64,000 nucleotides of DNA, taken from the NCBI GenBank assembly GCA_000497125.2, contig CM035317.1:8001-72000 (forward strand). Direction: 5' to 3'. This document shows, one piece after another, positions 692 to 54,399 of the stretch. Under the pieces are notes generated by a model, which was not told the DNA's origin, ran no database searches, and saw nothing but the letters and a program-made list of their open reading frames with translations. The first letter of the stretch is position 1. Each line of letters opens with the position of its first letter. Position numbers and translations under genes: made by a program. Origin of the DNA: Spironucleus salmonicida. Taxonomy: Eukaryota; Fornicata; Diplomonadida; Hexamitidae.

Positions 692-1415
692 TCATTCGGG
701 TAAGAAAACTATGTGAGCGACGTCATCAACTATATTATCTAAAACTATTTTTAATCTAAAAAATAATCCACAAATCGTATCCGAATTAACTTTTTCGGTT
801 GCTTTAAATGTTAAGTATTATTTTTCTAATATAAAATTGTCACCTTCAAGTTTTATATTAGATTTATCTGTCTATATCAGCGAAATCTTTATGCGGTAAC
901 TTTTTTCATGTACTGTTTGAAGTGTAGCTAAGGTATTAAACTAGTCTTACAATAAAGTCTTACTCAAAAAAATTATATTTGGTTTATACTTCTTCTATCT
1001 TAATCCATTCAGAAGCATGATAAAGTACTAGCTCTCTTAAGTATTAAAATTAATTAACGTTGTCGAATTTATTTTAAACAATTGATTTACAAATTATACA
1101 CCATTCGTTAAATAAACTATATCGTCTTCGAATTTGGATATAATGCTTCGGTATACGGTTAGATGATCAAGCAACTGCTCCTTAGATAGCGTAAATGCCC
1201 TGTCCTTCTTTACATACGTACATGTAATTAGGTCATTCTCAAATAATCTAATATGCTCGTATTAATTTTCTTTTTCAGTTAGCATTTTCACCTTACTAGA
1301 TTATTCATAGGAATCGTAATTCTTCTTGCAGATTTCGTATAGAGGTTCTTCGTATATCTTTTTTAACATTTCCTTTTCCAATGAGGCTTCTTATTCCATA
1401 TTAGCAATATCTTAC
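692..1415 (-). pseudogene. C-terminal part of giant NTPase copy A, out of frame with the main ORF
   Basis: This minus-strand frame stays open from the TA microsatellite down to a TGA at 692-694, with TAA/TAG read as Gln. It is shifted +1 from the main copy A frame that ends at 1416. An internal ATG at 1399 would give 235 residues. The stretch is lysine- and glutamate-rich and ends in a hydrophobic motif (FRLKIVLDNIVDDVAHIV). That motif is matched at the end of copy C (TRLKAVIVAIEEGVVHVI) and near the end of copy B (TRNIIVVGIAEGVVQIV). The three-way match is good evidence that this is real coding sequence of the same protein. Whether it is ever translated depends on the repeat length, on ribosomal frameshifting, or on a separate start; otherwise it is a broken 3' end. 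Confidence 0.6.
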
Positions 1416-4400
1416 TCACCATATATATATATATACAACTAGCATGGTGTAGGTATTATTTTCTTCATTAATAGACACAATTCTTATATTTATCGATGTC
1501 AAAAACTTCAATAGATCGGTATTGGTATTGAATGTGATTTAAATCTCCTTCTTACTGTTGTCACATGTAAAATGCAATGACTAAAACTTAGTAGCCAGTT
1601 TCTTAACAACAATACTATAGTCCTATATTAACTGCAAATCTAAATTCACCATCTACTTCAGTAAGATAAAACCTTATGACACATACTAATGCAAAATGGA
1701 AGTTCCTCTCACACTACAAACTTTATCAATAGTTAAGGTAGAATCCTTAGCTTCCACACTAAATTTCTCACATATTGCATCATACTTAGTAGCACAGTTG
1801 TTCTTCTCATCGATAAGCAAAAGGTATTAATAGTCATTATCTTTGAAAATATTTATCATTATATTTTTGTCATCTAATGCTGCAAATAACTCAGTGTAAT
1901 CCAACTTGGGATTCTTTATTTTGAAAACCTGGCACTGCATCTTGTCTTCAAACTTGGGTGGCACGTTTTGCTTAGGCAGTCTTTCCTTGGTCTACTGGTC
2001 TAATACAAACTGCTCAGACTTTTCCTATATTTTTAATAACTAGTTTCCTCCTTTCTTATCAAGTCCAATCTGCAATACATTATTAAGCGTGAACGCTTTT
2101 ACCTTTTCGGCCAACACTTCGGGGACATGGTGACCGCACTCTATCGGAAGCACTTGGCAGCCATCTATTTTCTCTAAACCGAGGTCAGGGTACCCGTGGA
2201 ACGTGACGATGAAGTCAAATATTTTGTGCCTTGCTTTGTCCAAACTATCCGTAAAGCACATCTTCTTGTTGAAAGGGATCACGATAATTAGCATAGGGCA
2301 TGTTTCTTAGTATTTTAAGTTTTCCTATGCCTTGCACTGATTCTCCTGCGATATAGTTTTTATCGTATATACCTGCATTAACAACATCTTAGTACGATCC
2401 TATATTCTACTCCATATTGACTTCTGTGGTGGAGGATTCCCTTTTTTGGTGGTACTTTCAATCTAGGTTGTGCTGCTAACATCATCCTGAGTTCCACCAT
2501 CCTACTCCACAATGGCTTCTTTGATGGAGGATTCGTCCTCTTTGTTAGTACTTTCTGTCTAGGCGGGTGATCTATAACGCAGCAACTGAAAAGTTTCGTT
2601 CGCAGCTGCTACCGAATCATCCAGTACCTATTCATATATAGAAATAGTTGGGTCTTTATTAAAATTTTAGAACGCATAGTCAAAGGTGGGGTTTAGGAAC
2701 ATAAACTTATGCGGCACGGACGTTCTTTCCAGCAAATTAAAAACATCCTCGCTTTTCGCTGCAGTAATACTTCCACCATGCACGTATTAGACGTAGATAT
2801 GCCCAGTGTCCACGTACCTCATAATCAGGTAAATGTTCCTAATTAGGGTTGCCGACTGCCATGTGAGCTTCGCCATGAACAGGATGACCTGCATAAATTC
2901 AAGCAACACGCTTCTCTTGAAAAATTTAGACACTTGTTATAGCGTAGCTTAAGCCTCTGCTTCATCTATCTATGAGGTTGAATATTACTCTATGAATGTA
3001 AGCATGAGCTGATAGTTCAAAACGGATACCACCTCGTAGTTCAGAGTCGATGATGCAATGCAGCTGATATTATAATTCTGATTCTCCTGTAGTAATTCAA
3101 AATGAGCATGTCCTTTTGTGAGCTTAAATTTAGTATTTTTACTAACACCTTTGTGTATGATAATATTGTTATAGGTTTAGGTGAGGCTATCAAACTGATA
3201 CATAGTTTGCTCTGGAATTTACTTTTTACCTTCTATACAAAAACTGACTACATGCTTGCTGGTTGCATTGAAATTTAATATTTTTTAGTTATACTGAAAC
3301 CATATAGATGGACACACCGAGGAGCACATGAACTGCATCTCAACCGACTTCTCCGTCATCATCGAGTACAGTAGTGATACCAAAATTGGGGTGTGTATAG
3401 CAAAATCACTAACTGATTATTCTATATTATTAATAGAATACTTATAACTTTTGTCATCCACTACCACCCGGCGCTGCTCGTACTGAAAGCTAGACAGCAA
3501 TGACGCGTGAGGCTGAACATATCCTAATATCTATGCGTTAATATACTTTACGCCCACTCTGCTTGATAAGATATTATAGGAAAATTAATTGACTGTAAGG
3601 AAATTTATGACGGTAAGGTCTGTTCCCACCATTATAACCGTAACATAATCAAAATTAGGTGTCTCGTATTTAGTACTGTATTGTTTAACCATTTTTGGTA
3701 ATTTTTCAATCATCAATTATAGATTTTAATGTAAATTCTTTGTATTTATATTCATAAAATATTTACATATTAAAGACTGGACTGAAGAAGACCAATATTA
3801 TTTAAGCATACACTGCTAACTTATAGGGAAAGCATTCTCTCTAGTAGTTTTTTCTTCTTTTTTATCCTTAGATAACTAGTCATCCACTTAGCTCGATTAA
3901 ATGTATTTAAATGCAATAACTGAAAATGCTTTCCAAAATGCTGTTTCGGCCCCTCTGGGGTTAAATAATTAAAGAATAAACTTGAAGAAATCCACTTCAA
4001 AATCTTCGTAGTACTGTCCTCGATTCCTGTAAGACGACATTCCCGAAAATAATATCTTTCTAAAATCTGTTCTGTTCCCAGTATTCAGTATCTGCGGTGA
4101 GTGAACGACTAACTCGTCGAGAAGGTCGTAATCATCAATCTCGAGGCGAAGGTACTCCATCGCTATAAGAATGTACTCTGATTTTCCTAGTAAACTATTA
4201 AGAGATTTAAAATATTCTATTATAACTTATTGGTTGGACTGCATAATACTAAATATCTCATTTTTTTGCTTAAACTATATACTGGTTATGATGTCTTCAA
4301 GAGTTTGGTACAAGTCTATACCTTTATTTTAGAATCGACCTGTCACACTAAGTTAGTTCAGTTTTTGCTTTGCTGCTACCAACAAGTTAATGTTCAGAAG

Positions 4401-6032
4401 TTGTGAAATAACATTGATAGCTAAATTATATTTTTTGTTTTTGACATCTCCTAATATGTCTATCTTTTAAAATTCTTGAATAGAAAGTGTTGCTTAAATC
4501 TTAGCATACCGTTTCTTACCTAACTTGATTAGCTTCTCTTCGTAATATTTGAACAACGACTGACACAACTTAACGCATTTCGAAAACTTCTCCTTCTATG
4601 ACTGCAAGCACTCATCTACCAAAATAATAGGGTGCTTCAATTATATATTATTTCGCCTTTGTTATTCAAGTAATACTTAGTCTATATCATTTATAATATT
4701 TGCAGTATCTATAATGAAAAAAGAAGCTAGTTTTAGTTAATCGAATTGCAACTATATAGAATTATCGTATTTTAGCTTTTGAACTAATTACAAGTTGCCC
4801 TGAATTTTGTTAATAAATAGAATCATACTCTAGTAAATAAAAGACATCTAGTCTAAGCTTTCCAACTGAAAGGTATGGAATTTACAAACATCAGCCAGCA
4901 CCGTTTCATTGAGGTTCGCTAAATCCTGCAACTCAAATGTATTTTTATACTGATCAACTAGTTGCTCGTGAAATGAGTGTGTCCTGTATTTATATAGAGG
5001 TTACTCATCAGATCCTTTCTTATTGAGCAAAATTGGAACATTCCCCTTCAGGAGGTGGAAAAAGTACTGTGTGTAGAGAGCTACGCTTTTCCCAGACTTG
5101 GAGCTCTGGCTTATGACAGCATTCGTAAGATTGTCGTTAAGATCATTTTTAACCAACGAGAATAATGTAAAATACTCCGCTTTGAAGAGGTAGGACACGT
5201 GGCAGAGCTGCTGGAACATGAACAGGCAGATCCCGGTGCCGAGAAAATGGAAGGGGAGCTGGAACAGGTTGATAAGGTCAAACTTATCCAACTATGGTTT
5301 TTCTTTCTCTGTGAATGCCTCTCCATTGTAAATCTTATTCGATACCTCAAATATCTTTCTAAGCATATTCAAATCCTATCCATATATTTTTTTCAGGTTA
5401 GAATGTTCCTTTAAATCATTAAACTAAGCATAATACAACCTGAATGCCGAGTAGCCAAAAATCAATGGTAGAATTAGAGGATACTTACCTTCTGACTGGT
5501 ACTTAATAGCTGCTAGCTGCAACAGTACCTGATTTTCATGAAAATTTAAATCTTCTATAACTTCAGGCTAGAGAAGCTATTCCGTGTCGAAACTATTGTA
5601 AAAAGAAAAATACTGCAAATGGTAGTCTTTAATGCTATTTGCAAATTTATCAAAATCAGGGTTTCGTGTGGAGTTTGTCGAAAGCACCCTAAGCCCCATC
5701 TGTGCTGCAACTAGGCCTATATTATCCCAAAATTTTGGATCTCGCGAGTTAATTATCTTTTCAAACTGTGATATCTAAAACTGAAAATTCTGAGCAATTT
5801 TCCCCAGCTTCTTGTAGAGCAGGACTACCTATACCGCGCACAGCTGCTCCTTGGTGGTAATAGCTGATCGGAGTATGTACCTGCAACTCATGTCCAACTG
5901 TCTGGACTATCTGATCTCGCTGCCTTCTATGGTAAACGTGAGCAGCTCCTAGGTATTTCTTTCTACTTTTACTTTTCCATCACAAATCGCGTATTGGTGC
6001 ACTGCGAAGTCTACTGATAGTGGATTTGTCAT
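1416..6032 (-). CDS. Giant P-loop NTPase family protein, copy A (1538 aa as read)
   Basis: One frame runs from ATG at 6032 to TGA at 1416 with TAA/TAG as Gln; no in-frame TGA interrupts it. A Walker A motif (SQSSKSGKS) lies near residues 309-316, a Walker B (ILVDEC) near 470-475 and a possible sensor (VTGRF) near 563-567. This order resembles AAA+/STAND-type or RHS/Crinkler-type P-loop ATPases; that assignment is inference. A conserved C-terminal block near residues 1247-1330 contains KIFDFIVTFHGY and GHHVPE and is also present in copy B. An acidic Ser/Thr-rich linker near residues 1150-1220 has two imperfect copies of an ESTxK-type unit and is absent from B. No signal peptide or membrane span is evident. 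The ORF ends inside an (AT)7 run, beyond which the protein continues in another frame. The start context taaATGAC is shared with copies B and C. Function unknown. Confidence 0.72.
1421..1434. repeat. (AT)7 microsatellite inside the coding region of NTPase copy A
   Basis: Fourteen bases of perfect AT alternation lie immediately before the TGA that ends copy A. On the minus strand the frame enters the repeat as GTA TAT ATA and leaves as TGG TGA. One extra dinucleotide unit, or two fewer, would connect it to the open downstream frame. Confidence 0.9.
3455..5270. repeat. Core block of copy A nearly identical to copy B
   Basis: This 1.8 kb block matches 13153-14967 in the same orientation, with long stretches identical (for example 4180-4540). 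Two patches have drifted (about 3965-4110 and 4885-4940). Outside the block the proteins are clearly homologous but much more diverged. The pattern fits gene conversion within the family rather than a recent whole-gene duplication. Confidence 0.85.
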
Positions 6033-7570: not shown

Positions 7571-8917
7571 CCTAATAGCCACATTTTCACTTGCCCTGTC
7601 CGCTCCCAAATCTCTAGATTTCGTGCAGCTCATGCAAACTTCGCCCCTAATAAATTCCCTTCAGTGTAAAATTCGCTCTCGCGCTCTCGAGATTCCATGC
7701 AGTTATGGACCAAATTTCCGCTGAAATTTCACGAATCTATCAACTTTAAATCGGTGCAATCGGCGATTGTGTAGAGTTCCTAACCGTACCGCTTGGGACA
7801 TCTTGACGATGCTGCTTTTAAACTTCTGAGGATCGGCTTGCAGGGTGCTTTGGATTTACTCTTGGTGGTATCAGGCATGATGAAATAGTGATAAATGGAG
7901 GTATGATAGGTACATTCGATATGTAGTGGATAGCATTAGCCAAATGGTGCTTGTGAATTGTCTGGGGAGCATCTTCAACGCATTTTGAAAGAATAGCATT
8001 TTAATTAAATTTAATGTATAATAAAATATGAAATCTCGATTTTTAAAGCGCTTCCGCTATCGATGAGAGGCTCGACATTTAAGACTTTAAAATTACTGCT
8101 CTGATAATTAAAATTATATTATATGATATATTATAAAAATAGGCATAGCTAGTGTTATTATATAGGGAAACTCAAAGTATGCATATGAAAAGATTTAGTT
8201 ATATTTATATTTACTTGTGTAGGTTTTTGTTTACTGAGTATACAATATTAGTATTTAATATATATTGTAAACATTTAGCATTATTTTAGATCAAAAATTC
8301 AGGTTAAAACTAAGGAGCTCTAAATATTTGATATTCTTATAATTCATAGCATATTTTCGACTCAAAACCAGAATATTGTATCCTATGGAATGCATTAGCA
8401 ACAATTTAATGCATAGTGTTAGGGGTAAATTTGATACTGTGCAGGATTAGTTAAGTTAAATACATCATGTCTAATACTGAGCAAACGATCTTTATCTAAA
8501 CTATTATTGTAATTATTACCAACTGCATCGAAATATACTAATTATGGGTAAGCTTTTAAATCTATTTTGTATTTAGTTTCTGTATGCCAGCTAATTACCT
8601 ACTGTGCGCCTTGCTAATATATTATATATCTGCATAGTTATAAAATACCCAAGTAGTAAAATAAGCGCTCTAGCAGCCCAACATAGCAGGATCACTCCTT
8701 TCAAATACATAGAGTCCTGTAAAGCCACACGAATAATATATTTAGTAAGATCTCTTTACATCTCTTGGCGAATCTCACATCCTGAATACCTACCGCTGCA
8801 TCTTGCACAAATAATTTCACTTGCTTTTATTATTGTTACTCTGATTCGCTCTGCTAACTCCTATCTAATAAAATAATAGTATATCCTACACTATCACGGA
8901 TGTTCCAAAGCAGAGAA
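7571..8917. repeat. 1.35 kb direct repeat, copy 1
   Basis: Matches 16714-18062 in the same orientation with only scattered substitutions and small changes. Both copies start at the word cctaatagcc and end near cagagaa, and the DNA on either side is unrelated. The first 350 bp are GC-richer and contain short minus-strand ORFs starting at a shared MPDTxKSKSKAPCKP segment; the rest is AT-rich. The frames differ downstream between copies, so coding is not supported. Each copy lies beyond the start of a giant NTPase gene (A or B), so it may be part of the duplicated unit. Confidence 0.85.
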
Positions 8918-10547: not shown

Positions 10548-11289
<742 letters not shown>

Positions 11290-14200
11290 TCAATCCTTAA
11301 TCGATGGCTTTTGCACTGGTTCTTATCGTGTATCAAAACTTGACATATGCTTGACGCAAAATATAGTCTAGCTTTTAAATTTTCGCTAAAATACTACACT
11401 TAATTACATTTAGTCTAAGAGCTAAGATACAGCAATCTTCTCTTTGAAAGTAAACTAAAAGTAAGTAAAATTATTTTTAATTTTCAGTATGCTAAATAGA
11501 TTATTTAATTTTGCAATCATAAACGATGGATCTTTAATAAATCTAAGATCTAGTAAAATAATAGTGTAGGGTTTTTATTTTAACAAAAACCTATCGCAAC
11601 AAAAGATTGTTTGTCTAGAATCGAATACCTAATTAAAAAAGTTTAGTTCCTGTACGGGCTCTACACTCACCAGACCGGTTAAGTTAGGCAAGCTAGTCTC
11701 AATGTTTAGGTCTTCAGATTTCTTGACAAATATGTAAATCTTGCCTAAATAGTTGACTATGCTAAATTCATGCTTCTTCTGAATAAAACTATCGAAAATA
11801 GTGCTGTACTCATCTTCTTATGTCAACTAATAGAACTGATACTGTCTACTTTTGTCGGCTAGGTCGAAAATTTTTTTAATACGCTCAACCCTTTTAGCGT
11901 TCTCTTTCTCTTGCTCCTGCGTAACTAACGCAGATGCACTAATATAGAGCATATCATTATCATTTTCCTCACCAGTATATTTAAAGATCAAATCTGCCGT
12001 TTTTGAATCCAGACCTATCTGTAATACATTTTTAAGGCCAAATGGCATGATTTTTTAGTTCAGGAAGTCCGGTATATGGTGTCCATACTCTACTGGCAAC
12101 ACATAACAACCTTCTATCATTTCTAATGGTAAAGTAATATCGTCATACCCATGGAATGTGATGATGAAATCAAAAATTTTGTGATCTTGATCTAGTACAT
12201 GTTAAAAACACAACTATTTATCAAACGGGATTATTATAATTAACGATGTAATTTTTTCTTATCTTACTAAAATCTCGAATGCTTCGCGCGCAGCCTATAC
12301 TGAGTCTTTGAGTATTTAGTTATATACAGCTGCATCATCCCCTTTGTGATCATAAGCCCTGTTGTTATCACTAAATTCATGTAGCGCATAATCTAGCGTT
12401 GGATTCAAGAACATGATTTATTGATCGTCTTGCGCAAATGCTTCCACCAGATTTTAATAAAAGGTTATTTTTATCTTATTATTGACAATAGCCTGTACAT
12501 ATACACTTCTGCAGTTTAGAGTCTGCATAACCTTCTTTAAATTATCGAGTAAAGTATTAGACTGCCTGGAAATAATCATAACTAGCAAAATGGCATTCAA
12601 AAACTCTAATAGGATGCTTCGACTAAAAAACTTGGAAAGGTCTTATGAAAAGAACTTGATTTATTCTGCGTTGAATATATTTTACGAAAACGTTTCAATA
12701 AATTTCGTCATCAGCTGATAGTTTAAAACGGCCACTACTTCTGAGTTTAGCGTTGTCGATGCTATACAACTAATATTGTATTGAGCACTATTATCCAATA
12801 AATCAAATTTGTGTGTACCTTTATTCAGTACAAAATTTTTAACTTCATCAACATCTTTGCTTATAATAATATTTTCGAAAGTCTAGGTAAGACTGCACAT
12901 CTAATATACGTCGACTTTCACATTGTTCACAGTAATTTTGTGACGCTTAACGCCATTAAAATTATTAAGTTGCTTTGACTCTTTGTCTTTGAGGAACCAT
13001 ATAGAAGGGCATATGGAAGAACACATGAACTACATCTCAACCGACTTTTCCGTCATCATCGAGTACAGCAGCGATACCAAAATTGGTGTTTCTTCAGCAA
13101 ATTTATTGACTCTACCTGGTATAGCATCTACAGCCTAGGTATAACCAGCAGCATCCACTACCACCCGGCGCTGCTCGTACTGAAAGCTAGACAGCAATGA
13201 CGCATGAGGCTGAACATATCCTAATATCTATGCGTTAATATACTTTACGCCCACTCTGCTTGATAAGATATTATAGGAAAATTAATTGACTGTAAGGAAA
13301 TTTATGACGGTAAGGTCTGTTCCCACCATTATAACCGTAACATAATCAAAATTAGGTGTCTCGTATTTAGTACTGTATTTTTCAACCATTTTTGGTAGTT
13401 TTTCAATCATCAATTATAGATTTTAATGTAAATTCTTTGTATTTATATTCATAAAATATTCGCATATTAAAGACTGGACTGAAGAAGACCAATATTATTT
13501 TAGCATGCCCTGCTAACCTTTAGAGGAAGTATTCTCACCAGTAGTTTTTTCTTCTTTTTTATCCTTGGATAACTAGTCATCCACTTAGCTCTCTTCAATT
13601 TTCTTAAATGCAATAACTGAAAATGTTTTCCAAAACGCTGTTTCGACCCCTCTGGGGTTAAATAATTAAAGAATCAATTTGTAGAAATTCGTTTCAAAAT
13701 CCTAATAGTACTGAACCCGATTCCTGTAAGACACCATTCCCTTAAAGAATATTTATCTAAATTTTGTTCTGTTCCTAATATTCAATATCTGCGGTGAGTA
13801 AACAACTAACTCGTCAAGAATGTCGTAATCAGCAATCTCGAGGCGAAGGTACTCCATAGCTATGAGAATATACTCTGATTTTCCTAGTATGTTATTAAGA
13901 GATTTAAAATATTCTATTATAACTTATTGGTTGGACTGCATAATACTAAATATCTCATTTTTTTGCTTAAACTATATACTGGTTATGATGTCTTCAAGAG
14001 TTTGGTACAAGTCTATACCTTTATTTTAGAATCGACCTGTCACACTAAGTTAGTTCAGTTTTTGCTTTGCTGCTACCAACAAGTTAATGTTCAGAAGTTG
14101 TGAAATAACATTGATAGCTAAATTATATTTTTTGTTTTTGACATCTCCTAATATGTCTATCTTTTAAAATTCTTGAATAGAAAGTGTTGCTTAAATCTTA

Positions 14201-15705
14201 GCATACCGTTTCTTACCTAACTTGATTAGCTTCTCTTCGTAATATACGAACAATAACTAACACAACTTAACGCATTTCGAAAACTTCTCCTTCTATGACT
14301 GCAAGCACTCATCTACCAAAATAATAGGGTGCTTCAATTATATATTATTTCGCCTTTGTTATTCAAGTAATACTTAGTCTATATCATTTATAATATTTGC
14401 AGTATCTATAATGAAAAAAGAAGCTAGTTTTAGTTAATCGAATTGCAACTATATAGAATTATCGTATTTTAGCTTTTGAACTAATTACAAGTTGCCCTGA
14501 ATTTTGTTAATAAATAGAATCATACTCTAGTAAATAAAAGACATCTAGTCTAAGCTTTCCAACTGAAAGGTATGGAATTTACAAACATCAGCAAGTACTT
14601 TTTCTTTGTAATTTTTTAAATCCTGCAACTTGAATGTATTTTTATACTAGGCAACTAGTTGCTCGTGAAATGAGTGTGTCCTGTACTTATATAGAGGTTA
14701 GTCATCAGATCCTTCCTTATTGAGCAAAATTGGAACATTTCCCTTCAGGAGGTGGAAAAAGTACTGCGTGTAGAGAGCTACGCTTTTCCCAGACCTGGAA
14801 CTCTGGCTTATGACAGCATTCGTAAGAGTGTCGTTAAGATCATTTTTAACCAACGAGAATAATGCAAAATACTCCGCCTTGAAGAGGTAGGACACGTGGC
14901 AGAGCTGCTGGAACATGAACAGGCAGATCCCGGTGTCGAGAAAGTGGATAGGTAGTTGGAACAGGTTCATGTATTCAAATTTATTTGGTAATAATTATTC
15001 ATTATAAACAGTATTAGACAGCTCAAATATTGTTTTCATGACTACTAATTTTTATTACGTTACAACTGATAAAACATTTTGATTTACAATTTCATCCATT
15101 CTATTTGTATATAACTTAAATCCTGAATAACCAAACACTAGAGGTAAAATCAAAGGATAATCGCCGATGCTCTAATATTATATTGCTGCCAACTGAGTCA
15201 AAATCATATCCTGATGAAAGTCATTCTGAATAGTACTTAATGGTTTCAGTATTTTCAATGTGTCAAAGTCATCATAGTAAGAAAAGTACTGAACACCATA
15301 TAAAGATATATCTTATAGTGCACTCTCATAATCAGCATCACCCTCTGTTTTAATTGACTTAACTTTAATTCCCATTTAAGCAGCTACTATTCCAATATTG
15401 TTCCAAAAAAAATCCTGCTCATATTTTACTATTTCCGTAGGTTACACTAGTTAGAATATTATATTCTAGGCTATTTTACCCAGTTTTTAATAAAGTAAAA
15501 CAACTTATACTGCGCAAAGTTACTATTTTGTGGTAATAGTTGAGCGTAGTACATACTTTATTTGATTTAATTATACTGACTGCTTTATTTCATTATTAGT
15601 AATTTTAAATTCCACATTGAAGATATCATTTTTTGCATACCTCAATTTTCCATTAAAAGCTTCAACTTAATAAACATCAAACTCGATAGATAAATCTGCA
15701 GTCAT
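11290..15705 (-). CDS. Giant P-loop NTPase family protein, copy B (1471 aa as read)
   Basis: ATG at 15705 to TGA at 11290, in one frame with TAA/TAG as Gln. The N-terminus aligns with copy A (shared RSxITTKxQLCAVxVVLLYxK). Walker A (SQSSRSGKS) is near residues 307-314, and the Walker B and sensor regions are nearly identical to A because they lie in the shared core block. The C-terminal block (KIFDFIITFHGY, EYGHHIP) is conserved, but the acidic linker of copy A is missing. The last 30-60 residues before the TGA may be read in the wrong frame, since the shifted frame there continues into the conserved family C-terminus. Cellular role unknown; probably cytosolic, as no signal peptide or membrane helix is seen. 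Confidence 0.7.
13153..14967. repeat. Core block of copy B nearly identical to copy A
   Basis: Partner of 3455-5270. It spans the Walker A, Walker B and following helical region. Divergence rises abruptly at both ends (near 13150 and 14967). Confidence 0.85.
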
Positions 15706-16713: not shown

Positions 16714-18062
16714 CCTAATAGCCACATTTTCACTTGCCCTGTCCGCTCCCAAATCTCTAGATTTCGTGCAGCTCATGCAAACTTCGCCCCTAATAAATTC
16801 CCTTCAGTGTAAACTTCGCTCTCGCGCTCTCGAGATTCCATGCAGTTATGGACCAAATTTCCGCTGAAATTTCACGAATTTATCAACTTTAAATCGGTGC
16901 AATCGGCGTATTTTGCAGAATTAAAAACCGTACCGCTTTGGGACATCTTGACGATGCTGCTTTTAAACTTCTGAGGATCGGCTTGCAGGGTGCTTTGGAT
17001 TTACTCTTGGCGGTATCAGGCATGATGAAATAGTGATAAATGGAGGTATGATAGGTACATTCGATATGTAGTGGATAGCATTAGCCAAATGGTGCTTGTG
17101 AATTGTCTGGGGAGCATCTTCAACGCATTTTGAAAGAATAGCATTTTAATTAAATTTAATGTATAATAAAATATGAAATCTCGATTTTTAAAGCGCTTCC
17201 GCTATCGATGAGAGGCTCGACATTTAAGACTTTAAAATTACTGCTCTGATAATTAAAATTATATTATATGATATATTATAAAAATAGGCATAGCTAGTGT
17301 TATTATATAGGGAAACTCAAAGTATGCATATGAAAAGATTTAGTTATATTTATATTTACTTGTGTAGGTTTTTGTTTACTGAGTATACAATATTAGTATT
17401 TAATATATATTGTAAACATTTAGCATTATTTTAGATCAAAAATTCAGGTTAAAACTAAGGAGCTCTAAATATTTGATATTCTTATAATTCATAGCATATT
17501 TGGGACTCAAAACCAGAATCTTATATCCTATGGAATGCATTAGCAACAATTTAGTGCATAGTGCTAGGGGTAAATTTGATACTGTGCAGGATTAGTTAAG
17601 TTAAATACATCATGTCTAATACTGAGCAAACGATCTTTATCTAAACTATTATTGTAATTATTACCAACTGCATCGAAATATACTAATTATGGGTAAGCTT
17701 TTAAATCTATTTTGTATTTAGTTTCTGTATGCCAGCTAATTACCTACTGTGCGCCTTGCTAATATATTATATATCTGCATAGTTATGAAATACCTAAATA
17801 GTAAAATAAGCGCTCTAGCAGCCCAAGATATCAGGATCACTCCTCTCAAATACATAGAGTCCTGTAAAACCACATGAAGAATATATATAGTAAGATCTCT
17901 TTACATCTCTTGGCGAATCTCACATCCTGAGCACCTACTGATACATCTTGCACAAATAATTTCACTTGCTTTTATTATTGTTACTCTGATTCGCTCTGCT
18001 AACTCCTATCTACTAAAATAATAGTATATCATACACTATCATGGATGTTCCAAGCCAGAGAA
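16714..18062. repeat. 1.35 kb direct repeat, copy 2
   Basis: Second copy of 7571-8917. Its downstream end coincides with the start of the virus-like island at about 18063. Copy 1 continues into different DNA at the same point. Confidence 0.85.
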
Positions 18063-26730: not shown

Positions 26731-29700
26731 TCACTCAAGAATTATCACGTGGACGACGCCTTCCTCGATGGCCACTATAACAGCTTTGAGTCGTGTGAAC
26801 GTTTCCAGTAAGTTCCTTTGGATTCGTAAATAGTCTCGAAACAATCCTCCTTAAAAGATGTTCTCTACCTTCTCGTAATAGACATTTAGTATTAATATTT
26901 TACGTTAAATGCAAAAAATCCATCATCAAATTATAGTAACGCGCATGCTGCATCAAAAACTTTGTCTTCCTTCTTTTGCAGGAATTCGATATCGCGCTCG
27001 GAGAGTTTGCTTTTATACGTTTCGATTGCACTTTTGCACAAAATTTCGTATTACGATTCAGTGTATTCAACCTCAATTTCTGACTGACTGAAAGCTGGAG
27101 GATTGAACTGCTCATGATCAGTGGTGAGCTTGCAGACTATTAACGTTTAATCTACAACCTACACTGGGAACAGATGTAGGCGTGAAAAGTATGTGAAAAT
27201 GTCAGTAGCACCAATGTCAGCTTCGACCTCTTGGTATCCTTGATAGCCTAGTCGCTAAAGAAGGTTTTGTAAGTCACCTTGCTTTTGTCTGTACAAGAGT
27301 TTACTATTTTGGCGAGCTCTTTAAGAATCAGTGGTGGTAGCGTATGTTTTCTGTCCTAGAGGAATTCAGTAAATTTGGGACCCAGTCGTGAGTCTGTAGA
27401 TGAATGCAGGTCCTGGCTTCTTCTACTTTCTCCTGAATATCACCTAATGGCTAAACAGATATTTATACTCCTCAATAAACTAGTGCACGTCTATCTGACA
27501 AGTCTATCTGTACAAATTTGTCATTTGACTCGAGTGAGCCTTGGAACTTTCTTAGATTATAAATATTTTAAGACCATCTTTTAGTCTTTAAACGCGTCTT
27601 AGATAGCTTGACCTTCCTTTAAGACAACATAAACCTGCTTCTACGTGTGATCCATGAATACGTTATTCAAGATAATTTTTAGTTTTTCGTATGCATAGTC
27701 TTACACAGCGAAATATGTTCTTTCTTCCTTGACACGTAAATCAGTGTTCTCTTCTATAAGTTTATCTTACTACTTTTTCCGGTTCTATTATTATGTTGCA
27801 TCTTTGCATTTTTGCTTTGTTTAGCTAAAGCTAATTGGCTTGCTTCATTCTCTTTGATAATTTCGCTCAGTTTTTCAGTTAGGGATTTATATTCCTCCTT
27901 AGAGCCACTAAACCCACCAATCTAACCAACTTTAGTCAATAGTATATCTTATTTTTGGATCTATTGTTCTGCATATGCGTATTTCTTTTCTGCCTGCTTC
28001 ACCATAGCAGTTACTTTTGCAACGGTCTCAGTTTTTGCGTTTTATTTAGATTCCACATCTAAGAGTTAAGCTTTCAGCTTTTCCACATTCACAGTAGCCT
28101 TTTCAAGGTCAACATATACTTGTTTTCCTCTTCCTTTAATAGCTTCTGAGCCTGCAACTCTCCTTCTTTTGTAATCTTCCGCCTTGCTTGATTAGGTCAA
28201 TTTATGGTACTTATCCCGGGTACATTGGTGGTTTAGAAGCATATGTTAACTCCAGTATCATTTGACTTATTGAAAACTGACAAATTACCATGATTACCAG
28301 ATTCTAGAAGAAAGTTGAGACTCTGAAATTGGCGTTCCTTAACAAATGCTAGTGCACTGATAGCATATCATTGTACAGTACCTCTTAGTTTGTTCTTCTG
28401 TGGTTCCGAATAACGATATCAAGTAGTCTGGCATTGCAGGAGCGGGGTTGAAAAACAAATTTGAAATTTGAGTCTTATCACAATAGTAACAATTGCTATT
28501 TTTTGATTGGGTTTTAGTAATTCATTTCCAGTAGCGTAGCATAGCAATTGGCTGCATTTGCTATTGCATGCTAAATATAGCTTTTCATGTTCCGCTTATC
28601 TGCTAACTGGAAGAATATGTCAAAGGATTGTTGTAGAAACATGAAAGTGGCACCCTAAAATAAAGTTTACAAATTGTCATAAATTGTTTTTAGGGGAGTG
28701 GTTATATCGTAGCTGGTGACATACACCGGGTTAAAGTATATTTCTAGAAACTGCTCATATTACTTAAGCTCCCTCATAAGCTTATTAAGTAGTAACATAG
28801 GACTGTCGCTATCTATATTCAAATCAGAGCTTGTACTATCTTAAGATTCAGAGCTTGTACTATCTTACGATTAGGGCAAGATAACTGCATAACAAGAAAT
28901 ATTGCCGCAGAGATTTCAGATATTTATTACTGTTTGAAGAAACACAGCATCTGATCGATGCCACTTTTTTCTCTAGAGTCTGTTTATACTACATCCGATT
29001 CTAAAAGTCTTAGACTTGTCAAGAATTATTAGCTCGCTAAGAAATTTAATACGAACACCACATCTCGATTCAGCGATGAGGAAGACGTGAGATGTAAATG
29101 TTTATTAAATTCTGCAATTGACTACGCTCTAACAATACCGTTGGTCACTAATTTATTAACTAGTTAGCTCCAACTAATTACCTTATTCCATTATGAACAA
29201 TGAATTGTAAATTTACATATGAGAAGAAATCTAATTCAAAGGAATAGACTTTTAATTAATAGTTAACTAGAATTATTGTGTAGAATTGAAAAAGTACGTA
29301 TTTGCACCCTCATTAATAATTATCTATGGGCACACAAGGGGCATAGGAACTGCAGCTCTGCGGCTAGCTCTGGCATCATCGTGAGGTAGAAGTCCTTGAT
29401 GCTCATATTTTTACCTTATCTTTTACCTATTATATCATAGAATCGTCAGTTTAGGTGTAATTCGCATATCCTGTAGTAGCTTTAGGTCAGACAAGAAGGG
29501 TGCATTAGGAGGTCCCAGGATATTAGATTGAGTATATTGAACTTAGCCTCTACTGCTTTCAGAAGTATAAATAAATTAATTTTATCTAATGGAGTTTATA
29601 AGTGCTAGATCGGTCCCAGCTGACAAAAAGTTACAGTTACCATGCGTTATTATTTGTATTTCTTGATAATTTAAACTAGAACTTAAGTCAAATCTTATCT

Positions 29701-31943
29701 AAAAAATAGAGTTTAATTACACAATAATTTATCAAACGAGTTTGAAGAATCAATAAAATAGCATAAAGTTTGTAATTAATTGAATCAATACCTGAAATCT
29801 GTGTGGCTAGTTGGTTTAATTCATTGCGTAAGATAAATTTCTCCAAAATATAGTCTCCATGCTTCTTGGATTATAGAGCATTATTAGAAAATGATATAAT
29901 TATTGCTTGAAAACAGCTCTATTTGGATATTCCTTCAAATTTATCATCATTTCAGAAAAAAATTTATGGTTAATAATTGATGTTTTTACATGAATAAAGT
30001 TTGGGGAAGAAATAACTATTAAATCTACTAAAGCAGATGCATTGTATCAATTAATAAATCATAGTAACAAAGCTATTTGAAAAAATATTCTTCAACTTAA
30101 TCAGAATCAAGTATGGATTTTATTTTTTAAGCAAGCTTTTCTTTATGTTTAGTAGACTTTAATCACATTATAATCTACAATTGTATTTTCATCCAGCCAT
30201 TTTTATATTTAGGGAACGTGTTAAGTACCTGTGGTACCTACAAGTATTTTTAAAACATATTCAATACAAGATCTAGCCTAATCAATAAACTTGTTCATAT
30301 ATTAATCAACAAGCTATACAATTATTTTTTCGACTTGATAGTAATTATCTTTCTAATGATTTAGGCATTCGTCTACTAAAACGATTACTTTTTGCGTTTT
30401 ATCATACTTCTATCCTTGAATAAATAATTTATAAGATTCTTTTAATTCTTTTAATTAGATACGATCTTTTTCATTTAATCCTTTTTCATAATAAAATTCG
30501 TAAGGTTTATTATTAGTTTAAATTCTTGTTGCTTCGCAATAAGCCGTAGAATTTATTTAAAAAAATTATCTAAAGATATATTTTTAAATGTATTAAAGTC
30601 TGTTTATCCACTAAAATATTGATCAAATGCACTTCTTATTTAATTAGTTTAAGCTTCCTATTAAAAACATTGGATATAAATATTAATTTTAGAAACCAAA
30701 TAGGATAGGTAATTGTAGCTATAAGTCCCTAGTTTAAATTAGACATAGCAATAGTTTCAATAGATATATTTGTACTAGATGCAAAGATATTCTTGAGATT
30801 ATCTCCTAAATTAATAGAACTTCTATTATATAATGGTTGCAGTTATAAATCTGAATTCTAATATTAGTGTCCTATATTTATTAATATGGGAATTTGCAGC
30901 CCCGAGAACAGGTTGAAGTAGAAGATGGTGTGCAGGGTGACGGTTTTCCCGCTCCTCGAGCTCTGGCTCAGAACCGCATTATCGAGGGGGAAGAAGGCTG
31001 AGAACACCGCAAAGTACTACGCCTTGAACAGGTAGGACACGTCGCACATTTGCTGGAAGATGAACTTGTTGGTATCGTTAAATCTAATATTTTTAGTAAA
31101 TGCACTGGGAGCTCAAAGAAGTTTTAAAAATTTGTCGACATAACAGCATCATTGTAAATTTACTGATTAGTGTTAAGAATAGATTTACCAGCCGACTAAT
31201 AAATAGTAGCAGGATCTATAGCGTTTGAATATAACATTTGCTGATAAATAAGGTAAGCACTATATCCAAATATCATGGGCAGTAGATGCGCATATATTTT
31301 AAACTTATGTAATGCTATACCAATTATTTGCAGGATAGCCTATTTCTCGACAATGCTAAAGTTAGATGGTATTTTAAACTGGGCTAAGTTAGTTTGTAGT
31401 CTTCGACTTAGTTATCTTTTTCATTCTAATCTTACTACTTACTTTCCTTTTTACTCACAATACAATTGGAAATAATTTAGAGTCATTGCTGAATTTTTAG
31501 AAACTATAACAATCTCGTGATCTGATTTCATGTTTCTACTTATACCTCTGCTAGTTTTTGTATTTCTTCATCGCCTATTACTTAATATGATAAAACTGAA
31601 AATCCCATTTGGATAGATAGTGAGACCAGGTTAGCCAGTAGTCAGATACTGATACACTAGGATCCTTCAGGTCATCTTGTATTATGATCAGTTGGATGTC
31701 GCTTCTGAGTAGCAGGCCTTGCCTGTGCTGCCACATGAAGAGGTGGAGTAGGCTGAGGTTCACAGTATCAATGGTTATCTTCAGGTAACGTACAGTATCG
31801 TCAACTTCGCTTATCTTAAATTAAATTCCGATAAATGAAAACACCACATCCTATTGAAGCTCCAGCAGATCTTTGTCTAGCGAGGAAAAAGTGAGCTAGG
31901 TAGGCTTAGCTTCTGCCTTGGTATTCTAGTCTTGATCGGTCAT
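26731..31943 (-). pseudogene. Giant P-loop NTPase family, copy C, decayed
   Basis: The start (ATG 31943, context taaATGAC), total span (5.2 kb) and motif order match copies A and B. Recognisable pieces: an N-terminal segment to about 31500; the Walker A (SQSSRSGKT) near 30945-30975; Walker B (VLVDEC) near 30385; a segment near 29330-29400 homologous to the MMTEKSVEMQFMC region of A; a coiled-coil-like lysine/glutamate-rich segment at 27780-28130; and the shared C-terminal motif (TRLKAVIVAIEEGVVHVI) ending at TGA 26731. At least four frame changes and in-frame TGAs (for example near 31458) separate these pieces. The Walker A segment is GC-rich compared with its surroundings. Confidence 0.6.
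28824..28871. repeat. Two tandem copies of a 24-base unit
   Basis: The unit beginning tcagagcttgtactatctta occurs at 28824-28847 and again at 28848-28871, with differences only near the end of the second copy. It lies in decayed copy C; 24 bases equals eight codons. Confidence 0.85.
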
Positions 31944-34561: not shown

Positions 34562-35171
34562 ATCTTTTGGTTTGGGCCATATAATAAATTATTAGAATTA
34601 AATGCTATATGTACTTAATGACATTATACCTGCACCAAATTGAATTTCTAATTTCCGTCCGTTTTAAGATGAATTGGATCTATATTAGAAGTAAAAATGT
34701 TTTGCTTCTTTTCCAAAAAAATGTAGTAGTATGTATTTAGTACGTATTACATACTACTAATATATTTATAATACTAATAAAGTTTTTCTTTTTATTTGTT
34801 CAAGAAAAAATAATATTACTTATACAACATCATACGGCTTATAAATGTGGTTGTCTTGCTTGAGATAACAATCATAATGTATGTTATGATATAGACTTAT
34901 ATTTTAAATTAAAATATTCAATCATTAGTTAGCAAAACGCATCTGATTATTCAAAAATAATGTGAATATTATTTTCATTGACATTTTATTCAGAGACCCT
35001 AGTTGATACTGAAAAAACTTGAGTATAAAAATTTGTTGAGATAGATGCTGCTTATTAGTATTAATAGAATGTTGATACGTCACATATCGTGAGATTCTTA
35101 ATTTTCATAATACTTATGGTAAAATATAATATATCTTACGCATAGAACTAGAAAAATAGAGATACTGCCTA
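34562..35171. other. AT-rich DNA up to the edge of the inverted repeat
   Basis: No gene supported. The frame of the truncated gene that follows can be traced back to a TGA near 35070 without meeting an ATG. Confidence 0.45.
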
Positions 35172-38012
35172 GATTGCACTCAAGGAAACTGCTTTTTGAC
35201 TGAGAATGGACCACTGTGCACGAAGTGTGCCCTGGGCCTTATTGGCATATAGTGCGACTCATGCGCTGAAGGTTTCGTGTAAGACTAGGCTAAATGCTGG
35301 CCAAAGGTGGGGCAAAACGATTGTTATCTAGATGAACTGTAAGCGCTAATCTGCGTTGGCTGTGCGGCAGACTACCTGCTCATCGGCAGTTCGTGCCTCG
35401 AAAAGTGCACGCTGCCAGAGTGCACCGGGCGCTGCTACATGCTACCAAACGACTACAAGTGCCTCGACTGCTTTCCAAATTTTGTGCTTTACGAAGAAAA
35501 GTGCTACGAGCAGGACTCGAACCCCCACGGGGTGTGTTTTACGACAGAAACCGAAAAAATCTGCTCCTGCTACGAAGGCTACAAAGGACCAACTTGCGAC
35601 GAGTGCACCGAGCTGTAGCTACGAGATTCGTGCTATATTGATGCAAATATTCCCACTGGAGACTGCTTTCAGAATGCCGCAGACCCCTCCGATCTGTTCT
35701 GCAGCGTTTGTGCTGCGAACTTCGCCCTACCGCTCTGCGACAAGTGTGCGGAGGGCTACGAGACTGATTTTTCAGGAGTCTGTTAAGGCTGCTCGTCTGG
35801 GTATTTCAGCTCAAACTTGCTCCCAGACGACCAAAAACTCTAAATTGGAGAGGAACTCTGCCTCATGGCATGCTAAAGCTGCAGCTACGGCGTCTGCTTC
35901 TACTCTGGAAGTAGGATAGTTTGCGCGAGCTGCCAGATCGGCTATAATCTACAGGATTCGTGTTAAACGTGCGATACCGGCTTTCTGAGTTTCGGAGTAT
36001 CTTGCATTTAGCAAGTTAACGAGTCCTGCGGCACAGATTGGGATGGAAATATTTACTGCTTCGAGTGTGGTAATTTGCAGCAGTCTTTTAACTGCTAGCA
36101 GTGCTCAGTTCAGTTCAATTTCCAGGGTGTTTGCAAACAGCACGCGAGCAATTTCGCCGATTCATGCGCGCTTGAGGGTTCCAATATAGTATGCGCAGAC
36201 GGAACTTGCAGGAAGTTTGACAAACTGAAAAATATGTGCGTGGAGTGCGATAGCACGTTGGTGAACATTAAGGGAAATTGTGGTGTTCTGACGGTTCCAT
36301 AGAATGGGAAGCTGCGGGGCCGGTGCATTGCGTCAGTATAGCGTTTCTGGTGCGATTAGTGCGATGAAGGATGGAGTGGAAATGTGTGCTCTGAGTGCGC
36401 GAAAGGCTACATGCCGTGCAAATGCACGAGTGGGTTATTTGCGCTCTGCTGCTGCAAAGTCGAGCTAGGGCTGAACGGCGTGTGCTATAGCAATGAGGCT
36501 GGTCGTGCAATTTGCGTTTCTTGCAGCTCTAGGTACCAACTTAGTAATTAAGAATGCGTTAAAATTGGCCTGACCAAGCAGTACGTGCTTAGTTTTTTTG
36601 TTCCTGCCTCACTAGGATTACTAATTTTACTTGCTTTAATTTTAATTATATTTTTAATTGGGAAGGAAAAGCGAAAAGATTTGTAAATTTTTGTCAAAAA
36701 GCTGGTTAAGCGCCTCGGAGTTCACCTTATATTCGTCATACTATCATAGATTTTAGCTGTCATAGTAGCTATATAGGATGTCTACATAGATGATTTTTTC
36801 ATGCAAACAGCGGTTAGCATATTCTCGATGCTGCCATTTGCCTTGCTATTCGTGTTTTTAGCGCCTCCAGTATACAAGAGGTACTTTTTTAACATGGCGT
36901 CTCATTTTTATTTGTTTATTCTGGCAGCTGCTATCTAGGTTTCGTTTAATGCTGTTTAGTACCTAGCTGTAACAGATATTGTCTAAGACTTTGGAGAACA
37001 GATCTATAAACTAGCAGGTCCCCCAATAACGCTATTATTGTGCATATTTCTAGCAAGATTCAGATTCAAACCCCAACAGAAGCTAGCCCTGTTCATAGGC
37101 TTAGGGCTTCCGCTAGCAACATAAATATATTATGCGATCTAGGATTCTATGGCAGCTGGGTACTTTACTGGCTCCTCGGCAGGAAATGCTATCATAGGCC
37201 AAGCTATGGTTCTTCTAGCTATAATATTAAGCGGTACGTAATTTTATGTATTTGATTTGATTCTCGGACGATATGGCGAGGTTGGCGCTATTTACAGAAT
37301 TTCGCTTTCGTCTTTCTGCATTAATGCAGTCGTTGGATTGTTATACCCTGGTGAAATATTAACTGCGATTCTTTAGTATGACATATTTTTCTCCAGCTTG
37401 CTCACCTAAATGTTATTTAACGTTGTCAATATTATAGTAATGATGCGAATATCGGCAGTTGAGTTTTCGATAAACCTAATCTCATCAGCAATTTGGGCAC
37501 AGTTTATAGCAGCGGTAGGGGATTATTATTATTCATAAAATAATAACTACCTCAGTACGCCCATTCATGTTATTCTCCAAACTTTTGCTTTAGTTATTGT
37601 TTTTGTTAGTTTAACCTACTTTAATATCAGAAGCTCTTACTGGTATCATAGAAAGAATGTGAGGTAGGCAAAAGAGCTAGAAACTGAAGTCAGTGGAGTT
37701 ATTCCGTTCATTAAAACCGCAATACTGAAGAAAAAGGCTCGATCATAGACGGAATCTGACTAATTTAATGATAACGTGGAAAGCTCCACATCCTAGACGA
37801 GACGAAACATAATGAATCTCGATGGAAATTTGCCAAGGAAAGGTACAAGGAAACCATTTATTAGCAGCAAAAACAACGTATTAGATAGCAATCAACTTTT
37901 TGGAACAAAATAATACAAATCTCAACAAAATTCACAGAACTCGCTTACTGGTATAGATTCAAAGCTTTAGCTGGCTTCCTTTGAGATACGATCGCCAAAT
38001 CCTGTGGAGTGA
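35172..38012 (+). pseudogene. 5'-truncated copy of the polytopic cysteine-rich protein
   Basis: 947 codons (946 aa plus TGA) collinear with the right-arm gene (58132-62010), without indels or in-frame TGA. The first 346 codons, including the start and signal peptide, are missing because the repeat begins here. Upstream DNA offers no in-frame ATG; the first in-frame Met lies about 90 codons inside. The remaining ectodomain keeps its cysteines. A cluster of replacements relative to the right copy lies near 35830-35885. It is either a silent donor copy or is expressed as a shorter protein from an internal start. Confidence 0.7.
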
Positions 38013-38701
38013 CAAATTCGTATCGTAAATCTCTTATCCACATAAATGCATTTTCAATATAAAGTGTATATTATATAATGATAGTATTAATTTAATTGAA
38101 TAATATATTAATGATATTAAATTCATTTTGTTATTTTCCCTTCTTACTTGTAGTTATGATTTATGATATTAAATAGTTAGTTCTATATAATATTATACTT
38201 TATTTGTTATTCATAGTATAAATTATTTAATAGAGTAGAATTCATATATTCTAAGTTATAATTATGATAACATTATTTTATTACAAATAGAAGTTACTAA
38301 TTTTTGCTATGCACAGTAGTTTGATATTATATGAAAAGTGTTAAGAAAATAGTAAAATCAATATAATATGTCAATATCTGTTTTATATAATTTTAAATAA
38401 AATTAGCTGCTATTATAACTATTTGCAGATAACTGAAATCTTTAAATTACTGAGTACCTTTCAAAAGATTTTCTATTTTTTACATTAAGCTATCTTTATA
38501 TGTGATATTAAAGTAAGTAATTATTGTCTTATACATTAAATTGTATAGTTAGATAATTTATTAATATAGTACCTAAACAATTTATTTTTAGGTTTTGGAC
38601 CAACTTTAATAAGAAAAATATACATACTTTATAAAATTTAAAAAACAGCGAGAATAGTGTTTTGGTGATTAACTAATATAATATTTATCATAATCTTCAA
38701 A
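38013..38701. other. AT-rich intergenic spacer, left arm
   Basis: 689 bp between two surface-protein genes, almost identical in sequence and equal in length in the right arm. It ends in cttcaaa directly before the next ATG. No gene seen. Confidence 0.6.
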
Positions 38702-39361
38702 ATGGCCCCAGATAATAGCAATAAGCAAGTAAATAACGCAGATACCAAGTGTACACGACATATCGACTGTTCTAGTTAAAAGAAAGGATATTGTGATGGA
38801 AATACCCTAACGTGCAAACCATGTTAGATGAATTGCATTGTATGTGAATCCACCGCTTCGTGCAATTCCTGTGAGCCTGCTACCCACGTAACAACAATAA
38901 CAGGTGAGTGCACCCCAATTTGTCCTGGTCTCCAATATCGTTAATTTTGTGAGAATGGAAAACCTAAAGCTTGCACAGAAGGAGCCACCTCGCCGTGTAA
39001 ATGTGGAGTAAGTAGTAACTGTGGGACCTGCACAGGTGATGTTATGCCAACATGCGCCACCTGTTTAAAAGGAATGAAGATGGACGATAACGATCGCTGT
39101 ATGGATTGTGCAGTAGGCTATAGAAAATTTGTCGGAAGGTGCTGGCCTATTGTTCCTGAGCCAGATATCCCAATTGCCCCGGTAGATCCAGAGGTCCCAG
39201 TTGTCCCAATAGTTCCAGTTGTTCCGGTGGACCCCGAAGCCCCTGCCAGCAACAAGCTAGGCGGCGGGGCGGTTACCGGAATTGTCATCGGTGTGATTCT
39301 TGTCGTTGGCGCCGTTGCTGGCGGCCTTGCCTATTATTTTATCAAGAGGGGTAAAAAGTGA
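38702..39361 (+). CDS. Cysteine-rich membrane protein, 219 aa (left-arm allele)
   Basis: ATG 38702 to TGA 39359, four TAA/TAG as Gln. An ectodomain of about 130 residues has cysteines in CxxC pairs; next come a proline/valine-rich stalk (repeats of the type VDPEVPVVP), a glycine-rich membrane helix (about residues 187-211) and the tail KRGKK. This matches the layout of diplomonad cysteine-rich membrane proteins, surface proteins related to Giardia VSPs. No classical signal peptide is seen at this start. The right-arm paralogue (56783-57442) has the same length but differs strongly in a short ectodomain block. The start is preceded by the cttcaaa element found at other genes here. Confidence 0.85.
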
Positions 39362-40214
39362 CTGGAATACTAACTTGTGGTAGGTCATCTGCAGTAAACT
39401 AATTATATATAATATACCCATTTACACGAAATAACCTCCCGTGCTCGAGTAGCTGTAAAGTATCAACGTGGGGTGCGATGTGTATACGAAGAAACAGCCA
39501 ATGGCCCTGTACCAATACAATCGAAAGCGCTACCCATTGGAACTTCCTCGTGCCAATTGCGTGCTTTCCGAGTGGCCAGCGCCAACTCCAAGACGCCAGA
39601 ACGCGCCCAAACACGGGGGTGCCTCCCAGACCTGCACGCCCTGTTGCACTCTTAAGAACCAAGCCTCTCGCATGGGCACCATTTCGGTAGCAGCGGCACC
39701 TCGAACTCGCTGCGCTGCATCAAATTTGCACCCTACGGCACAGGAGCGCAGATTTCAGAAGTTTGCCCGCTAGCCGGCTGTTCGCGGCGACGAGAGTTCG
39801 GGTGCGGTTCGCTGAAGAGCTGGGCATCTGCTCATTGCAAGGCAGTGCGCACGTGCAGGTAGAACTGCAGCGAGAAGCTGGCGAATGATATTTTTATGGT
39901 AGTAGCTATAGTAGGACATAATACTATTAATAGTTTTCACCTAAAACTAGTTTCGCTGTATGTTTCCAGTAACAGTAACTAATCCTCATTCCACTCCGCA
40001 GTTTTAGATTATTGTACATTTGGTATAATATCAACAATAGAGTCTATGAAACTCGCTTAAAATAGAAGATACCATAATTAGTACTTCTGCATATTTTGTT
40101 TCCATTTCATAAATACTATATATTACCGTTAGTTCCCCTAATCTATTGAAACTAAAAACCCGGCCAAGCTGAATACTTTCTAACCTCTGTTGCATTCGCC
40201 TCGGGTCTTCAAAA
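39362..40214. other. Spacer with a GC-rich, possibly coding block, left arm
   Basis: Between two surface genes. The middle (about 39440-39890) is GC-rich. In one frame (from ATG 39473) it gives a cysteine-containing sequence with motifs such as GTSSC and CKAVRTCRQNC. That frame runs on without TGA into the next gene, so no protein end is defined. The same block exists in the right arm with few changes. Likely a gene relic or an unusual small gene. Confidence 0.3.
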
Positions 40215-41744
40215 ATGTTGGCGGTATTAGCAGGGTACGCGCAGCTCCAGGCGTGCTACTCCGACCTGACCACCCTGGAGGTGTCCCAGGTGCAGGGTAC
40301 GTTGATCATCCACATCGAGCCGACCGGTAGCGCGGCATGCGGCAACCTGCCGACTGCGGTGAACGTCCGACTCCTGTTCACGCGGAAAGACCTGGACGTA
40401 CAGACCGTGCTCACGGACTTCGCATACGGGACTACGCTGCTGATCCAGATCCCAGTCGCCGACATCAAGCTATACGTCGACGTCAAGGCAGCCCAGCTCG
40501 AGATCCGCAGCTACAGCGAGGTCTTCATGCAGCAGATCTCCCAGATCACGCTCACCCGCAACAGCGAGGCAGAGGTTTTCAGCAACCTCCTGGTGGAGTA
40601 CGACCAGAAAGTCTTCACCGCGACCGCCTCCTTCCCGAAGGCATTCACAACGCTGGCCGTGACTAACGCCACGCTCATCGTCACCAACTTCATACAGTCG
40701 TACCCACTCTCATATGATAGTTCATCAGTGAAGACTGAGACCACTGCTAAAACCATATCCATCGGCTTCTCCAATAAGGATCTGTCCCCCATCCTCTACA
40801 ACACCGGGATCCTCTCCATAATGCTGGTATGCACCTACGGCTCCAACGACATCGAGGCCACCGGGAAGGTGTCCACCATCACCCTATCGTATAAGGGCCA
40901 AGACTCCCCAGGGGTGATATCGGCAGTGAGCGCGTACGGCAACAACCTGTTCCTGATGATAGACAGCTCCGAGAGCTTGAAAACGGAACTAATGAAGGCT
41001 GCCTAGGTTAAGCTGGTGATCGAGGTGAACGACTTCGCCTGTACCCTCGTCGCGCAGTTCGCGGCAGCACTGCTCTCGGAGAACATCAAACTGAATGGAA
41101 AGCTCCAGCTCAACATGGACGAGCAGGTCTTCTCCCCGGTGGACGATGGCTTCCTGCAGCCGCCTGAGTGCCTGCAGCTGGTGTTCGACAAGGGCGAGAG
41201 CGTGATCGTCAGCATGGCCCTGTACAAGGACGAGGTTCCACTGAACCGGTTCAGCTTCACCTTCGCCAACATCCGCAAGACGTGCTTCTCGGACACGCAC
41301 ATGGTGCTAGAGGCCGGCTTCATCCGCGTAACGTCAACGAACAACTGCCCGCAGCCAAAGCCCTACAAGGCCAATGTTACCATCTAGCTGTTTCCTACGC
41401 AGGCGAACTAGGTTACTAACAGTGTCACCAATGTGGCAACTGCCGAGTTTCTGCTGGACACGCACCTCGACATCGAGATTCGCATCCCGGAAGCGAAGAC
41501 GATCCGCTAAATTCAGGACGCGTACAACTACTAGTTGCTGATCACGAGGGCCAACGGAGACTTCGTGGACTCGCTTTACCCCGACTTCTAGACGGTGACG
41601 CTGATGGAGATAATATTCTACAATATTATCATAATTGCAGCATCGATGGTTGCCGGCGGGGCGCTCGGCGGCGTTATCATATTCGGAAAGACCAAGCTAC
41701 GGATGAAGAAGCTGCGGCCAAAGCCCGAAATGGACGAGATATGA
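40215..41744 (+). CDS. Type I membrane protein, 509 aa, unrecognised (left arm)
   Basis: ATG 40215 (context cttcaaaaATG) to TGA 41742, with several TAG codons as Gln. A short hydrophobic N-terminus (MLAVLAGYAQLQAC) may be a signal peptide. About 450 residues of Thr/Val/Ser-rich, beta-strand-like ectodomain with few cysteines follow. A membrane helix lies near residues 472-496, then a basic tail (KTKLRMKKLRPK). Strongly GC-rich codons. Probably a surface protein of a different class from its cysteine-rich neighbours. The right-arm copy has the same length, and the differences noticed between them change amino acids. Family not identified. Confidence 0.82.
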
Positions 41745-41755
41745 CTGTTTGAACT

Positions 41756-42465
41756 TATAATTCTAAGTATAATATTATAATATAAATATATAATTTAATC
41801 TCAAAAATTTTAATTATAATTAAATTTAACATACTGAATTATTTAAAAACGGAATTATTATTATTTTTATTAAATAATTATTAAAAAGTGGTAGTATTTT
41901 ATATTTAGTATAATTAATCTGAAAATATTGAACTTTAAATTTATATATAAATAAAGTGTATAATTATAATTATAGACACGCTTTTAAAATTTCAACATTA
42001 AAAATAATGATTGGTTTTTATTTTATTGAATTAAAAATTATTTTAACTGTCTTATAAATAAATATTACACCATTGTCTAGATTTGTTGATATAATGAATT
42101 TTATGAAACTTTGATGTTCCCAAGTGTAATACTACAATTGCTAATAAAATTATGAGTATAATATTAATAATAAAGTTGATTATCAAAAGTAAATATTTTA
42201 TTAGCAGTGTTAAAATTATAGTTATAGTCATCTTTAAAATATTATTTTGAATAATAACTAATTTAATATAATAATTGTAATATACATTTAATGATTCAAT
42301 CTTTATATAGTAATAAATATATAGAATAATGAAATTAGTGATAATCCATCATTTAAAAATCATATTAACAGATGTATATAGGACATATAAGTTTTGCATC
42401 TTTATATAACTTCTCATTCTCAACATGCAATATTAGTTCTCTTAGGCTAACGATTTACTACCTAA
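41756..42465. other. AT-rich intergenic DNA
   Basis: First 700 bp of unique sequence inside the inverted repeat; very AT-rich, no gene seen. Confidence 0.55.
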
Positions 42466-54388: not shown

Positions 54389-54399
54389 AGTTCAAACAG

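Follow-up and report, generated by a model that had tools for sequence, protein, structure and literature searches.

When a long reading frame stops at a dinucleotide repeat and the conserved end of the same protein lies in another frame, the question is whether the repeat switches the gene between a short and a long product or whether the gene has simply been broken. We addressed this question for a locus of Spironucleus salmonicida, denoted copy A, that lies near the start of the window, that is, the whole stretch of DNA analysed (64,000 nucleotides; C2:8001-72000 of a 14.47 Mb genome). In our assessment, copy A very probably carries an ordinary frameshift, which would make it a truncated gene or a young pseudogene produced by slippage in a mostly subtelomeric, recombining family, rather than a selected switch. 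The long frame of copy A is open under code table 6, in which TAA and TAG encode glutamine, and is absent from the list of open reading frames (ORFs) obtained under table 11. The locus comprises three features:

1419..6032, minus strand: main reading frame of copy A, 1538 codons, with matches to the family (table 6 ORF 1416-6032, followed by TGA at 1416-1418).
1421..1435, minus strand: 15-nt TA run that holds the frame break of copy A (seven TA units plus T on the coding strand); compared with the runs of the paralogues.
692..1417, minus strand: tail of copy A, 241 codons and a stop, which represents the C-terminal region conserved in the family and lies in the +1 frame with respect to the main frame.

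The peptide translated from the main frame ends with TMLVVYIYIW, and the TGA codon that terminates it is located two bases from the TA run. The overlapping minus-strand frame 692-1498, with its stop at 692, carries the sequence YIYIYGEQDIANMEQ. The run is the sole alternating A/T stretch of 10 nt or longer in the 64-kb window; it lies inside a reading frame, at the frame break, and its unit length is not a multiple of three.

The position of the break is defined by the paralogues. A genome search with the copy A tail alone produced 11 matches, of which four are strong (E 7e-76 or better: copy A itself and the copies on C9, C3, and C1) and the remaining seven are weak (22-28% identity). The C9, C3, and C1 copies each cross the junction in one unbroken frame, so the tail is the true continuation of copy A; because they read through with TA runs of 8, 11, and 11 nt, respectively, the break in copy A, where the run is 15 nt long, lies within the repeat. 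These continuous paralogues and the table 6 frames agree with the preliminary description of the locus, in which the main ORF ends at the AT run and the conserved C-terminus continues in the next frame; the extension of about 240 residues given there is also right, the tail after the junction being 241 codons long. The C9 copy is open over 1807 aa, and the C3 copy has a broken frame further upstream of the junction. Database proteins P0002-P0006 (1746-1801 aa) are in frame across the junction as well; of these, P0002 corresponds to the C1 copy (100% identity) and is thus not independent of it.

The same comparison bears on the possibility that the two frames of copy A are joined, either by programmed +1 ribosomal frameshifting or by an intron. 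An open and conserved tail is consistent with both mechanisms, but the C9, C3, and C1 copies are continuous at the same point and need neither; that is, the frame break is not conserved among these homologs. Because the paralogues are unbroken at the junction, we rejected both mechanisms as extremely improbable. For introns, there is the additional point that the chromosome-scale assembly paper reports four introns in this genome and a conserved-motif search that yielded no new one (PMC9509377).

The ordinary frameshift that we favor can be described as follows. Copy A belongs to a mostly subtelomeric family with multiple copies that, among the matches listed, is represented in S. salmonicida only. 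In copies A, C3, and C1, the TA run encodes alternating tyrosine and isoleucine just before the last ~240 codons. As the run in copy A is 4 nt longer than that in C3 and C1, the frame shifts and meets TGA at once, leaving the otherwise open C-terminal region detached. Replication slippage would be the simplest cause of the change in run length, and it presumably occurred recently enough for the tail to have accumulated no further lesion; gene conversion among the copies can spread or erase such lesions. Two observations count against this scenario. The window has a single long TA run, such as a switch by slippage would require, and the break falls there; and the intact tail fits a very young break and, equally, a tail that is still sometimes read.

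Compared with the C9 tail, the copy A tail contains no stop and no indel in 241 codons, and the two differ with dS of 0.132 and dN of 0.073, for a dN/dS of 0.55 (all dN/dS values here derive from pairwise counts and are blurred by gene conversion). Among the polarised changes in the tail, 4 synonymous and 8 non-synonymous ones are assigned to copy A, and 13 and 18, respectively, to C9; in the 450 codons before the junction, the corresponding numbers are 11 and 29 for copy A and 11 and 26 for C9. The tail of copy A thus shows no detectable decay, and its own substitutions are few, as would be expected of a recent break or of a tail that remains in use. With TGA as the sole stop in this code, the openness of the tail says little for or against either reading.

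Under a phase-variable (contingency) switch, the number of units in the TA run would change often enough for cells to alternate between the 1538-aa form and one extended by about 240 aa. This was the central proposal of the preliminary description, and its structural part stands: the break is in the repeat, and the run length varies among paralogues. Also in line with a switch, the tail is still open and has changed no more than in the intact C9 copy, and the family includes both short and long forms, with intact annotated members of about 1,700-1,820 aa. The part of the proposal that concerns switching itself did not fare as well. Only the truncated state was seen at the end of copy A, namely, in this assembly and in the database protein P0001 (V6LTH0; UniRef and EukProt; 1508 aa), whose final 212 residues are those of copy A and which has the same truncated end, VVYIYIW; judging from this peptide end, which gives the same frame as in copy A, the underlying DNA run is likely also 15 nt long. 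The overall identity between P0001 and copy A is only 77%, with the differences located further upstream, so P0001 is another copy or a chimera. No protein crossing the junction of copy A was present among the 12 matches of the protein search. The main frame of copy A itself was absent from these 12 matches and from the 20 profile-search matches listed, and it may have been filed as a pseudogene. Furthermore, the TA runs of the paralogues are shorter or interrupted, not maintained. Dinucleotide runs of small length have low mutation rates, and a fast switch of this type would be expected to have more than 7.5 units. Taken together with the family-wide evidence below, a selected switch at copy A appears quite unlikely.

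P0001 is also relevant to another explanation, namely, that the break is an assembly or consensus error and the true tract length keeps one frame. The assembly was made from PacBio RS II reads with Illumina correction (PMC9509377), and short repeats within duplicated regions are difficult to correct. Against an error, P0001, which, to judge by its sources and accession, probably belongs to the 454- and Illumina-based gene set of 2014, has the same peptide end, although it is known as a peptide and might represent another copy or a chimera. The argument is weakened by the use of the Illumina reads of the earlier gene set in correcting the new assembly as well (PMC9509377). On balance, we regard an error in tract length as quite improbable.

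Across the genome, 50 or more pieces match the main frame of copy A, a lower bound, with 30 of the 83 candidates scored. Merging of the family loci resulted in 29 stretches, 27 of which lie less than 55 kb from a contig end or on contigs shorter than 20 kb; the other two are internal to C5. When long database members were aligned, a frame change was found in 14 of the 29 stretches, and 15 remained in one frame across the matched part, several of the stretches being cut by contig ends or N; the count of 14 leaves out in-frame TGA codons within a single alignment piece, such as the one in the C21 copy. Thirteen break sites were examined, each placed to within the overlap of alignment pieces, with five copies that share one truncation (the B group, described below) counted once. 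A dinucleotide run longer than 6 nt is present at the copy A site only; at the other 12, such runs are at most 6 nt long, so that no repeat comparable to that of copy A was found at the break points of its sister genes. Runs of A6 or A7 lie near two of the 13 sites. The absence of a longer dinucleotide run at 12 of the 13 sites indicates that the frame breaks in this family are mostly ordinary indels and argues against a switch. Also in keeping with an ordinary frameshift, the chromosome-scale assembly is reported to include 194 pseudogenes, and the 3' ends of 156 genes were updated in it on account of short indels that distinguish the assemblies (PMC9509377). The window contains one further, decayed member of the family:

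29471..31390, minus strand: decayed family relic whose fragments do not share a single frame (TGA codons in the three minus-strand frames: 9, 9, and 13).

The second long member of the family in the window, copy B, is broken in a similar place:

11290..15705, minus strand: main frame of copy B, 1471 aa plus stop; the C-terminal region is likewise out of frame, through another 2-nt difference, at no repeat.
10692..11333, minus strand: C-terminal region of copy B in the other frame, 62% identical to residues 1525-1748 of P0013.

A +1 break common to copies A and B would be compatible with a conserved programmed frameshift. This idea was abandoned because the comparison with the intact C6 copy gives copy B a different break, a frame-changing 2-nt gap that is not at any repeat. 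Copy B belongs to the B group of five copies (the others being three on C1 and one on C4) that are all cut short at QEPVQKPSIKD, in front of the C-terminal region, which is open but lies in a different frame (window 10548-15705; C1 13-44 kb; C4:1662226). Over 1532-1533 nt at the truncated end, alignments between these copies have no gaps, their main frames are 1471-1479 aa long, and the pairwise dN/dS is 0.39-0.51; P0014, a database cluster with the B-group end, has 8 members. Given that members other than copy A are truncated before the C-terminal region by different indels, loss of this region seems to be tolerated in the family. Copies A and B share identical blocks of 353 and 333 nt within a stretch of 1990 nt that is 93% identical, a pattern such as gene conversion would leave. 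Two direct repeats, 7571-8092 and 16714-17237, are 99-100% identical, about 9.1 kb apart, and lie upstream of copies A and B.

The B group and the tail of copy A raise the alternative of a gene split in two, that is, into a 1538-aa protein and a separate short tail protein (the 225-aa database entry), each with its own start. The tail of copy A is indeed filed separately, as P0021 (225 aa; a cluster of 2 sequences whose longest contig, at 1877751 bases, is as long as C2), which is identical to the tail from the 17th residue of the tail on, and in all five B-group copies the truncated main frame is intact, the tail lying in a different frame. A database entry does not, however, equal expression; the tail frame of copy B lacks an ATG before its last part; and the differences among the B-group tails, found in 7 of the 10 pairs (5-6 non-synonymous, 0 synonymous), are all non-synonymous, though few. 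We consider such a split very improbable.

One more possibility combines the features of the family with a switch at copy A: the C-terminal ~240 residues would be an optional module, the short and long forms would coexist and be exchanged by gene conversion, and the TA run of copy A would act as a reversible microsatellite on/off switch. We deem this combination distinctly improbable. Copy A does resemble bacterial contingency loci in having, inside a reading frame, a short repeat whose length determines which of two products, short or long, would be made; unlike in those loci, the run is short, a single state was seen, and the other members of the family break elsewhere, without such repeats. 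To our knowledge, no contingency genes of this kind have been described in diplomonads. In a limited literature search on phase variation, microsatellites, and frameshifts in protozoa, the titles that matched concern bacteria.

In the proteins of this family, SGKS preceded by QSS[KR], together with IILVDE, is invariant in 13 aligned sequences and is reminiscent of the Walker A and B motifs of P-loop NTPases, a hint that the family might consist of P-loop enzymes, as far as motifs can tell. The Walker A consensus is [AG]xxxxGK[ST]. The family departs from it, and hence from typical P-loop NTPases, in having glutamine at the first Walker A position in all 13 aligned sequences; moreover, the Pfam and PDB sequence searches were empty or gave matches at chance level or, for Pfam, below the curated cut-off. 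The label 'giant NTPase' attached to this gene earlier is accordingly unproven. A structure model of the C-terminal region (mean pLDDT 63.4) had no PDB fold match at E <= 0.001, and that of the core (mean pLDDT 49.8) was too poor for a fold search. All 20 matches listed in the profile search of the protein collection, in which the 7993 candidates sharing most words were scored, are S. salmonicida proteins.

Within the same genome, the closest parallel is provided by the CRMP families, for which 22 and 30 pseudo copies are reported (PMC9509377). As in those families, there are multiple copies, some intact and others broken, and gene conversion is suspected in both cases. The family described here differs in that the lesion of copy A is a change in repeat length and the detached tail is still open, and none of our searches linked the family to a named one. 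Copy A, then, illustrates cleanly how a gene in a recombining, mostly subtelomeric family can be broken by a change in repeat length, and it is a warning that a short reading frame in a family of this type may be a fragment that has become detached. Were reads to show several tract lengths, copy A would instead be a switch driven by a microsatellite, in a protist that carries two diploid nuclei.

The remainder of the window includes several features apart from this family. An inverted repeat (35166-41759 and 54385-60978) has arms of 6,594 nt that are 99% complementary and separated by 12.6 kb; one of the arms holds part of a 1407-aa frame (58132-62355) that extends past the arm. A 511-aa frame (47362-48897) matches iron-only hydrogenase (Fe_hyd_lg_C, E 5.7e-65) and contains ferredoxin domains. 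The frame at 62830-63999 runs off the window and has a weak IBR match (E 0.00037), under the curated cut-off.
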